This document shows, piece after piece, positions 34,469-42,598 of a stretch of 64,000 nucleotides of DNA. The stretch lies in the NCBI GenBank assembly GCA_001769535.1, contig MEOH01000006.1:103077-167076 (forward strand), read 5' to 3'. The DNA is from Bacteroidetes bacterium GWF2_38_335 (lineage in GTDB: Bacteria > Bacteroidota > Bacteroidia > Bacteroidales > GWF2-38-335). Each line of letters starts with the position of its first letter. Position 1 is the first letter of the stretch. The translations under genes were made by a program, and so were the position numbers. The notes under the pieces were generated by a model. It saw only the letters and a list, made by a program, of their open reading frames with translations. It made no database searches and was not told where the DNA came from.

Positions 34469-34801
34469 ATGAAGAAATTAGTTGTTATTGTTGTTCTGGT
34501 TCTGGCTGCTTTTGTTTCAAATGCCCAGAAAATATATTCTGTTGATTATGAATCACAGGCCGATGTTAAGGTTTTTGTTGTTGATTATGAATCACAATGC
34601 GACCTTAAAGTTTACAAGGTAAGTTATGAATCACAAGCCAGCGGAGATGGTAAGTGGTTTTTTGTGGATTATGAATCACAAGCCGACAAAAAAATATTTT
34701 TTGTGGACTATGAATCTCAGGCCGATTTAAAAATCTATTTTGTGGATTATGAATCGCAGGCTGGCTGGAATAACAGTTCAAAAAAGCATTTGATGTATTA
34801 A
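34469..34801 (+). CDS. Secreted six-repeat protein resembling the 7(1) septoil-knot (DUF6150-type) domain family
   Basis: Signal peptide (MKKLVVIVVLVLAAFVSNAQ), then six units of [VS]xYESQ[AC]DxKx[FY][FVK]V ending in YESQAGW...KKHLMY. Confidence 0.75.
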   Translation: MKKLVVIVVLVLAAFVSNAQKIYSVDYESQADVKVFVVDYESQCDLKVYKVSYESQASGDGKWFFVDYESQADKKIFFVDYESQADLKIYFVDYESQAGWNNSSKKHLMY

Positions 34802-34856
34802 CCTCTGATCTATGAAAACTATGGAAAGCCCGGGACTTATGTTCCGGGTTTTTTTA

Positions 34857-37706: not shown

Positions 37707-37777
37707 GGTCGGTTGGCCGAGTGGCTAGGCATCGGTCTGCAAAACCGGGTACGGCGGTTCGAATCCGCCATCGACCT
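37707..37777 (+). tRNA. tRNA-Cys (anticodon GCA)
   Basis: GGTCGGTTGGCCGAGTGGCTAGGCATCGGTCTGCAAAACCGGGTACGGCGGTTCGAATCCGCCATCGACCT; cloverleaf with acceptor GGTCGGT/ATCGACC, anticodon loop CTGCAAA and GTTCGAATC T-loop. Confidence 0.96.
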
Positions 37778-37835: not shown

Positions 37836-38030
37836 GCTCCGCTTGAGCAAAAAAATTTAAATTAAAAAATCCCGAAGGCGATAGCCGGGGTTTTGCAGAG
37901 GGTATCCCCCCCTCTGGATCATGAAATAATCCGCTCCGCTTGAGCAAAAAAAAATTAAATTAAAAAACCCCGAAGGCGATAGCCGGGGTTTTGCAGAGGG
38001 TATCCCCCCCTCTGGATCATGAAATAATCT
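37836..38030. repeat. Two-copy tandem direct repeat, 97-bp period, with internal terminator-like hairpins
   Basis: GCTCCGCTTGAGCAAAAAAA...CCCGAAGGCGATAGCCGGGGTTTTGCAGAGGGTATCCCCCCCTCTGGATCATGAAATAATC occurs at 37836 and again at 37933, nearly identical. Confidence 0.92.
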
Positions 38031-38145: not shown

Positions 38146-39027
38146 GTGAACACTCAGCAAAAAATATCCATAAGTTTTTTTGACGACCGTGAAGTGCGCG
38201 CCATCTGGGATGAGCAAAATGCTAAGTGGTGGTTTTCGGTTTTAGACATAGTTGCCGTTCTTACTGACCAAAACGATTATGCGAAAACCCGCAACTATTG
38301 GAAATACCTTAAAGCCAAGCTGAAGAAGGAAAACAGTGAAGTGGTTAGTGTCACTACCCAGTTGAAACTTCTTGCCCCTGACGGCAAAAAACGTATGTCT
38401 GATATGCTCGATTATAATGGGATCATTGCATTGGGCAGACAGTTTCCCGGAAAAAAGGCAAACCGGTTTATCGAATGGTTTACTTTAAGTGATGAAAGCA
38501 TAGACGGAAAAAGCAAATCAAAGGCCTATGCACTTTTCGAGAGTTCTTTTATTGACAGTCTCGAAGTTGGCACAGCCAAAGGTCTTCAGCAAATCCATGC
38601 ATATTTGTTTGGTGGCTTGTATGATTTTGCCGGACAAATAAGACAAAAAAACATTTCAAAAGGAGGGTTTCAGTTTGCTGTATCACAATTCCTTGGAACT
38701 ACATTAAGGCAAATCGAAGAAATGCCCGAAAATACATTCGATGAAATTGCGGAAAAATACGTGGAAATGAACATCGCACATCCATTTATGGAAGGCAACG
38801 GCAGAAGCACCCGGATATGGCTGGATCTGATATTGAAAAAACGTCTGAAAAAATGCATCGACTGGAGCAAAATAGGCAAAACAGATTATATGAACGCAAT
38901 GGTGAAAAGTGCTGTAACCAGCAGTACCGTAAAAAAGTTGCTTAAAAATGCCCTAAACGACCAAATCCACAGCCGGGAAATGTATTTGAAAGGAATTGAT
39001 TATTCTTATTATTATGAGGAAAATTAA
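38146..39027 (+). CDS. Bro-N (phage antirepressor-like) / Fic domain fusion, putative AMP-transferase
   Basis: N-terminal [30 protein letters not shown]...[12 protein letters not shown] (Bro-N-like). C-terminal [20 protein letters not shown] Fic core (HPFxxGNGR at 38779-38805). C-terminal SYYYEE resembles a class III inhibitory motif. ORF start is a GTG or in-frame alternative near 38146. Confidence 0.87.
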
Positions 39028-39143: not shown

Positions 39144-40493
39144 TTACATAAGTATTAACTTATGAATTGTCACTCCTCTGTTTGAGATCAGATATACAAA
39201 ATACAATCCTTTGGGATTAGTGCTTAATTCAATTCTTTTATTCGTGCCCTTATAGACTACAGTTCCTTTGATATTGTATATCTCAATCATTTCAATATTT
39301 TCCCCTGAAACATTTATGTAACCATCTGATGGATTGGGAAATATTGTATTTTCATTTTTGGTTTTTTTATCTAAACCTACAAAGTGAAATCCCTTGTATA
39401 ATAATAAATTAGGCATTCCTAAGCCGCATGTTCTTGATTCAAGGTATATGGCATCATTGACATAATCACAATCTTCTCCTAAACCATTGGGATTGTTAAT
39501 CACATCCAAATAAGAAGTATAAACATCAGACACATAAATTTTGCCGTCTGGGCCAAGCTGAAGTCCTCCACCGTTGACCAGAGAATTGGAAATATTTATC
39601 GGGTCTGAAAAAGAACCACCTGAGATGTCATATTGGTAAAGATTCGGATTAATAATGTCACATACGTACATTTTGGTTTCATCGGGTGAAAATTCTAAGC
39701 CATAAGCATCAGGATGGCAAGTTACATCTGTTTGGCAGTTGGAAAGGATTCCAGTGCTGTTATCAAAATCAAAGAGCTCAATGGCGCCTAATGAATAATG
39801 GGCAAGGGCAATTTTACTACCTGAAATTGTTGCTTTCATAAAGCCCATACTTTGCATGCAATTGTCAACATAAGAAGGTGTGGCTCCTATGTTTGATATT
39901 ACTGGAGTGGTATGCAGACTATCAGAATCAATTAAAAAAGTCTTAAACGCATTTGTGCCCCATTCATGGGTTACCAACCAAAAATAAGTGCCGTTTGCAT
40001 GAGAAACTGCCTGCATTTTTTCACAGGATTTAGCATAAATGAGCTTATTTTTTTTTGTTGGATCAACATCACCCTTTCCGCCATTTAAATTCATGTTAAC
40101 GATTGAATATCTCAAACCATATATTAAGTTGTTTTCAGCATAATCCAGGGTGAAAATATAGAATAAGGAATCATTATTTGGTTTGGGAACAATTATACAG
40201 GAATTGGTTGTGGAGTTTCCTCCTAACAAAACTGTTCCATGAGGCATATAAGAGTGTGTAGAATCCCATACGCTTATTCCATCACTATAGAAGAGCAAAT
40301 TACCTTCAGAATCGCAAACGGTTGCGCAGCCCTCGTGGGTATTTACTTTTCCATTGGTAAGTACCACAGGTGTTGCTGAATTAAAATCCAGTCCGCACCT
40401 ATATCCAAAATACCAGATATTGGTATTATAATTTTGCCCATTAATACTTACTGCAAAAAAAAGGCATAGTATAATAAGAACTTCTTTTTTCAT
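39144..40493 (-). CDS. Secreted beta-propeller-like protein with T9SS type A C-terminal sorting domain
   Basis: Signal peptide; NIWYFGYRCGLDFNS..., propeller-like repeats; C-term TIFPNPSDGYINVSGENIEMIEIYNIKGTVVYKG...LSTNPKGLYFVYLISNRGVTIHKLIL. Confidence 0.85.
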   Translation of the reverse strand: MKKEVLIILCLFFAVSINGQNYNTNIWYFGYRCGLDFNSATPVVLTNGKVNTHEGCATVCDSEGNLLFYSDGISVWDSTHSYMPHGTVLLGGNSTTNSCIIVPKPNNDSLFYIFTLDYAENNLIYGLRYSIVNMNLNGGKGDVDPTKKNKLIYAKSCEKMQAVSHANGTYFWLVTHEWGTNAFKTFLIDSDSLHTTPVISNIGATPSYVDNCMQSMGFMKATISGSKIALAHYSLGAIELFDFDNSTGILSNCQTDVTCHPDAYGLEFSPDETKMYVCDIINPNLYQYDISGGSFSDPINISNSLVNGGGLQLGPDGKIYVSDVYTSYLDVINNPNGLGEDCDYVNDAIYLESRTCGLGMPNLLLYKGFHFVGLDKKTKNENTIFPNPSDGYINVSGENIEMIEIYNIKGTVVYKGTNKRIELSTNPKGLYFVYLISNRGVTIHKLILM

Positions 40494-41701: not shown

Positions 41702-42598
41702 ATGAAAAATATTGCCGTAACCGGACTGGTTATTATATCAGTTGGTTTTTTTATTAATTTGTATTCTTTTTCTGAAAAAACACCTTTCAGATTTACTGAC
41801 GGAAAAGACACCATCAATCCCGTCTCATTAATAAACCCTGAAATTCCTGCACTTCTGTCCGGCGAAAAAGCAATTAATCACAAAGGATACACCCTGCTTT
41901 ACAATGAGAGCCATGAGCAGGCAAGCTGGGTGGCTTACGAACTTACTTCTGCTGAAACAAAAAAGCTGTTTAGCCGCACCGATTATTCAGGTTCTGGTTA
42001 TGACCGCGGTCACCTCGCTCCGGCTGCCGATATGGGCTGGTCTGAACAGGCCATGGCCGAATCTTTTTACTACAGCAATATGAGTCCGCAAACCCCCGGT
42101 TTCAACCGCGGAATATGGAAAAACCTTGAAGAATTGATCAGAAGCTGGGCAGTGGAGTATGGAAGCGTTTATGTTGTAACCGGACCGGTTTTGAAATCAG
42201 GGTTGCCCTCAATTGGCGCAAACAAAGTTTCTGTGCCTGAATATTATTATAAAGTGATTCTCGATTATTCAAAACCCGATGTCAAAGCCATTGGATTTAT
42301 CATGAAAAATACTTCTTCCGACAAGTCTCTGTCAAATTTTGCGGTTACCGTTGATTCGGTGGAAAATATTACCGGAATTGATTTTTTCCCCTCCCTGCCG
42401 GATACCCATGAAGCAATAATTGAAAAAGAACTTTGTGTTTCATGCTGGATCTGGGAAAGGCAAAATACCGAATATGTGCCTGAAAAACAATCCACTTCGG
42501 CCTCGGTACAGTGTTCTGAATATACGCAGGCCGGAACAAGATGCAAGAGAAAAACAAGTTCTCCGAATGGTAAATGCTGGCAACATGGCGGGGATTGA
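41702..42598 (+). CDS. DNA/RNA non-specific endonuclease (NUC1/NucA family) with C-terminal Cys/His module
   Basis: YDRGHLAPAADMGWSEQAMAESFYYSNMSPQTPGFNRGIWKNLE (DRGH and downstream Asn). C-terminal CSEYTQAGTRCKRKTSSPNGKCWQH. Confidence 0.92.
   Translation: MKNIAVTGLVIISVGFFINLYSFSEKTPFRFTDGKDTINPVSLINPEIPALLSGEKAINHKGYTLLYNESHEQASWVAYELTSAETKKLFSRTDYSGSGYDRGHLAPAADMGWSEQAMAESFYYSNMSPQTPGFNRGIWKNLEELIRSWAVEYGSVYVVTGPVLKSGLPSIGANKVSVPEYYYKVILDYSKPDVKAIGFIMKNTSSDKSLSNFAVTVDSVENITGIDFFPSLPDTHEAIIEKELCVSCWIWERQNTEYVPEKQSTSASVQCSEYTQAGTRCKRKTSSPNGKCWQHGGD

Follow-up and report, generated by a model that had tools for sequence, protein, structure and literature searches.

The gene at positions 34469-34801 of the window (the whole 64,000-nucleotide stretch of DNA analyzed here) was found to encode a 110-residue protein of the DUF6150 family, composed of a signal-like leader, six near-identical units and a conserved tail. 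Comparison with its relatives demonstrated that four residues of each unit (positions 2-5) form a barcode, which is usually the same in the six units of one protein and differs between proteins. The original prediction from the sequence had described the repeats, but missed this main feature, a protein-specific motif repeated six times. We know of no earlier report of such a rule. A literature search found no paper mentioning DUF6150 or PF19647, and the repeats might figure in the structure paper of the knotted protein Q9PR55. Structure modeling suggested that this exported six-repeat protein is probably knotted.

The gene, its product and its family

The gene lies on the forward strand, as do all of its parts described here, and the translation confirmed the reading frame with six near-identical units as originally quoted. 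The 19-residue hydrophobic leader MKKLVVIVVLVLAAFVSNA (34469-34525) is followed by QKIYSV, the six units and the C-terminal tail NNSSKKHLMY (34769-34798), for which a short helix was predicted. The units share the core (V)DYESQA(D) and have lengths of 13, 13, 15, 13, 13 and 8 residues. Units 1 (DYESQADVKVFVV, 34544-34582), 4 (DYESQADKKIFFV, 34667-34705) and 5 (DYESQADLKIYFV, 34706-34744) were delimited by the unit table and the motif scan. Unit 2 (DYESQCDLKVYKV, 34583-34621) has Cys at position 6, as is also the case in 29 of 289 relatives. Unit 3 (SYESQASGDGKWFFV, 34622-34666) holds an invariant Trp and is longer by two residues (15 versus 13), as had been noted originally, while most relatives have three extra residues there. 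Unit 6 (DYESQAGW, 34745-34768) is without a strand of the usual kind. The motif GATTATGAATCACARGCC occurs six times in the window, starting at 34544, 34583, 34622, 34667, 34706 and 34745, all inside this gene, when 0.09 copies were expected from shuffled sequence.

The Pfam search detected PF19647 (DUF6150) with 91.5 bits against a cut-off of 27 (E 3.4e-26), covering profile positions 3-98 of 98. The proposed family assignment was thereby established, under the name DUF6150 only, which is the name that Pfam gives. In an alignment of 38 members, the protein showed the family traits: six units, the third of them lengthened and bearing Trp, and a GW...K tail at the C-terminus. The tail, originally described as conserved-looking, matched the pattern W-x-N-x-S-K-K-H-L-x-Y conserved across the relatives. 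The junction of MKKLVVIVVLVLAAFVSNA and Q resembles a signal for Sec signal peptidase I; the mature chain would start at Q20, judging from the sequence, the N-terminal helix of the model and an A/S-Q junction conserved in relatives. Signal peptide and cleavage site were recognized by inspection, and a crude rule detected a hydrophobic leader in 284 of the 289 relatives, supporting the export signal predicted earlier.

The gene stands alone in its neighborhood. Divergently upstream lie mraZ and a division/cell-wall cluster, and a gene for a 909-residue WG-repeat protein is convergent downstream. A G+C-rich hairpin followed by a T run (34823-34854; -20.5 kcal/mol, z -5.84), located between the two convergent genes, is a likely terminator, and was absent from the list of the consensus terminator scan. 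Farther along the window, an intergenic segment is present in two 98-bp tandem copies that are 96% alike (37836-38029); it contains a terminator-like GGGG/CCCC hairpin and adjoins a tRNA gene (37707-37777). It is followed by genes for an apparently solitary Fic/DOC protein with a possible, weakly matched Bro-N N-terminal domain (38146-39027, +), a protein with a type IX secretion C-terminal sorting domain (39144-40493, -) and a non-specific DNA/RNA endonuclease (41702-42598).

A second DUF6150 copy with a different barcode, also missed originally, was found on another contig of the source genome. DUF6150 was present in 21 of 399 genomes sampled throughout the phylum, in 110 of 395 from the order of the window organism and in 17/167, 34/46 and 57/298 genomes of three other orders. 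The 14 control genomes lacked it. The first family alignment was too diverse for scanning the collections. The scan of GTDB species contigs gave 557 stretches encoding relatives, the best of which were nearly all from metagenome-assembled genomes of Bacteroidota. A few IMG/VR viral contigs also carry a relative (L053/L135, L054, L136 and L137); some of their barcodes are degenerate, and their phage origin is putative. The search of a phage collection detected no relative, that of plasmids a single weak match in Chryseobacterium, and the PHROGs, NCBIfam and PADLOC profiles nothing convincing.

Six units were counted in 289 relatives, and only two otherwise complete shorter forms were found, with four units (L020:1456-1710, -) and three units (L212, +, ORF from about 400). 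These are possibly natural variants of knot type, or the result of assembly collapse of near-identical repeats. Motif counts of seven to nine in some relatives were artefacts of the regular expression, as each of these proteins has six units. Other architectures were also observed. In one protein, five units without a signal peptide precede a probable SH3-like domain (L048:985-1701, -), and in two proteins of 284-411 residues (L183/L184) the units are degenerate.

Barcodes across the family

Barcodes were at least 80% homogeneous in 237 of the 289 six-unit proteins, about a fifth of the proteins being mixed. We identified 42 barcodes, such as YESQ, SKYD, YKSD, YENQ, YDYQ, WKSE, ADYK, AEYK, NRYD, SEAF, SESY and TESW. 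YESQ was the commonest (105 of the 237 homogeneous members), and the window protein, which carries it, is not unusual within its known family. In the first set, the identity at positions 2-5 among the units of one protein was 0.66, compared with 0.29 when units were reshuffled among proteins (maximum of 1000 reshufflings, 0.32), and the larger set gave 0.68 within and 0.25 between proteins. The strand residues (positions 7-13) showed the reverse pattern, with 0.37 within a protein and 0.51 between proteins compared unit by unit.

The barcodes also follow a simple grammar. Position 2, 4 or 5 is aromatic in all 42 of them, and charges of the same sign never occur together at positions 3 and 5; the charges at these two positions were negatively correlated (-0.70, p 1e-4, 32 distinct barcodes), these tallies of distinct barcodes being not fully independent because the barcodes are partly clade-structured. 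On a tree built from backbone positions, 55 barcode changes were counted (130 tips, 39 barcodes), when compared to approximately 80 after shuffling. The tree indicates that barcodes are partly structured by clade, yet have repeatedly changed. The proteins L119 (YESQ) and L022 (ADYK), for example, are 88% identical in their backbones, but not one of the 24 barcode residues is shared; L063 and L301 are a further such pair. One genome has a tandem pair that carries SKYD and YKSD on backbones that are 77% identical, and the window protein (YESQ) matches its own paralog (SKYD) in 67% of the backbone and in 0 of 24 barcode residues.

Among pairs of homogeneous proteins within one genome, 32 of 34 differed in barcode, and the two sharing pairs were near duplicates. 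When backbones were matched, barcode likeness was 0.256 for paralogs and 0.343 for pairs between genomes (p 0.03), and the test with one pair per genome gave p 0.02. The count of identical barcodes alone was not significantly different between these two kinds of pairs (p 0.25). The sequences thus point to a modest effect.

Fold and origin of the repeated motif

The AlphaFold2 model had a pLDDT of 92.3 for the whole protein and 94.0 for the mature part. In both models analyzed, each unit was predicted to form a one-turn helix at motif positions 3-5 and a strand some five residues long. The PDB fold search with both models placed at ranks 1-4 four chains from three entries of Q9PR55 (8iwa, 8iwb and 8jrm), with probabilities of 0.44-0.93 and E-values of 2.7e-3 to 8e-2, while all other PDB entries had probabilities of 0.06 or lower. 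The superposition was poor, as TM scores were 0.28-0.40 (same global fold, >0.5) with an rmsd of 10-11 Å. The models and Q9PR55 agree in local geometry and in the order of elements, and the global arrangement was not reproduced, so that this is real but imperfect support for kinship. AlphaFold does not respect topology and is unreliable in this regard (PMC10672856). Neither phmmer nor the 38-member profile found a Q9PR55 chain in the PDB up to E 10, the PDB sequence searches with the protein and this profile gave no other relevant match, and the BFVD fold search gave nothing. On these models, the window protein is likely kin to the knotted Q9PR55 fold. The predicted link to a 7_1 knot received indirect support, in that the Q9PR55 chains were the sole credible PDB matches of two models, but none from global superposition or from sequence profiles.

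Direct-coupling analysis of the 289 relatives, with the barcode positions removed, showed that the strongest long-range couplings mostly join units three or four apart (units 1-5, 2-5 and 2-6). An offset of 3 or 4 gave the highest mean coupling in 92% of bootstraps, and an offset of 1 in none. Relabeling of the units gave p 0.025 for a top-3 statistic, which was picked after the first look, versus p 0.37 for block means. A (2,7) torus winding, with two circuits of about 3.5 units each, leads one to expect couplings at offsets 3-4; the pattern fits such a winding and is suggestive only. Charge pairing between particular units, resolved unit by unit, gave no signal.

The same data bear on the possibility that DUF6150 is an unknotted six-rung repeat protein, a small beta-solenoid or closed ring, with the motifs as ordinary stacked ladders. 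Identical-residue ladders are common in solenoids, and the poor superposition on Q9PR55, together with coupling block means not specific to offsets 3-4, would agree with such a structure. Solenoids vary in length, whereas nearly all members have six units; the strongest couplings mostly skip three to four units instead of joining neighbors, and the only relatives in the PDB have a 7_1 knot. We consider the unknotted structure unlikely, with a real claim to attention.

The explanation that we favor, with moderate confidence, is that the DUF6150 product is an exported and autonomous protein, wound as a torus in the manner of Q9PR55, with six equivalent, mutually contacting helices that carry a single barcode. 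The chain would fold like Q9PR55, making two turns around a ring that bring unit i beside units i+3 and i+4, and the six one-turn helices would pack at equivalent places, so that around the ring an aromatic residue recurs, as does a pair of complementary polar residues at positions 3 and 5. If the same residues serve in every unit for contact with the others, only a change of all six units would be tolerated, which would account for one barcode per protein. The barcode may help the chain to interleave correctly with itself, and coexisting paralogs may be kept from mixing by their different barcodes; as the p-values are modest, we only infer this insulation. The product would probably be compact and protease-resistant, located in the periplasm or at the cell surface, without a dedicated operon partner. 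More tentatively, and with considerable doubt on our part, the barcode could be a six-fold self-complementary code for threading or self-recognition within a knotted chain, replaced everywhere at once and kept distinct between paralogs against cross-association.

The barcode could instead be a recognition surface for a ligand (glycan, metal, partner protein or phage), shown six times and diversifying with its target, as would suit the exported location, the many barcodes and the differently barcoded paralogs in one genome. The grammar of an aromatic residue with a complementary 3/5 pair points rather to mutual packing, and no defence-system profile matched. Moreover, a conserved operon or partner gene was sought around the relatives, and only lineage-level neighbors were found. 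The ortholog in a congeneric genome, 81% identical, has no neighboring gene in common with the window, and a linked partner is therefore apparently not needed. We regard a recognition surface as improbable. As to the lineage-level neighbors, a PnuC-like membrane protein gene lies downstream of the relative at about ten loci (L064, L065, L070, L074, L079, L081, L089, L093, L097, L101 and L126), followed in most by a NadR-like kinase gene (both names assigned by eye), an arrangement that is probably synteny within a lineage.

Units kept alike by recombination should resemble each other in their synonymous codons as well. The frequency of the same codon at motif positions was 0.54 in 115 proteins, compared with 0.48 expected from local codon usage. 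The near-identity of the repeats at the DNA level, claimed originally, was real in the window gene, where the same-codon fraction was 0.69 versus 0.45 expected (p=0.002). An excess at p<0.05 was seen in 28 of 111 relatives, the window gene included, and the congeneric ortholog of the window gene had none (0.47 versus 0.52). In the closest ortholog pairs, codons were common unit by unit at 0.60-1.00, when units within a protein gave 0.37-0.73, which is what units evolving independently under selection on the protein should show; codon sharing was near background in more distant pairs, including those of the window gene with its relatives. The codon data point to selection at the protein level as the general rule, not to general homogenization of DNA, with occasional homogenization possible, also in the window gene. 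The suggested recent homogenization thus found at most partial backing, in the codon excess of the window gene, but not as a property of the family. That gene conversion or unequal crossing-over made the repeats alike, the barcode being the latest copy to spread, is improbable: the codon excess in the window gene and 28 of 111 relatives agrees with it, and exchange of the whole barcode on a little-changed backbone needs some route of spreading, but most relatives are without the excess, close orthologs share codons of the same unit above the level within a protein, the interleaved strand residues are not homogenized and the number of units does not drift.

Comparison with known proteins

Few natural examples are available for learning how proteins tie complex knots and which sequence rules permit it. 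In DUF6150, hundreds of natural sequences carry a simple code in repeated form. With backbones that stay almost constant across code switches, differently coded paralogs in one genome and apparent short forms of three or four units, the family makes it directly testable what repeat identity contributes to knotted folding. The PF19647 profile and the window protein share the full-length match of the mature part, the six units and the tail; nothing is notably different, the barcode YESQ included.

Q9PR55, a likely relative of DUF6150, is the most complex protein knot solved so far. This Ureaplasma urealyticum protein with a 7_1 knot was the only credible PDB match of the window protein and is similar in the size of its folded part (77-89 residues), with 23-27% identity in the structural alignment. 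It differs in that the superposition is poor and no sequence profile connects the two, and a signal peptide and near-identical repeats set the window protein apart. Its structure paper appeared in J. Biol. Chem. in 2024, going by the citation in PMC13352647. The Q9PR55 homolog P73136 is likewise small and uncharacterized, and its predicted 5_1 knot belongs to the same knot series with one winding fewer (PMC9278004); we liken it to the window protein by description. Designed knotted tandem-repeat proteins follow a similar idea, a knotted ring made by winding a chain whose repeats are equivalent; unlike the window protein, they are helical and man-made, and among them the designed 5_1 knot did not form (PMC10598012).
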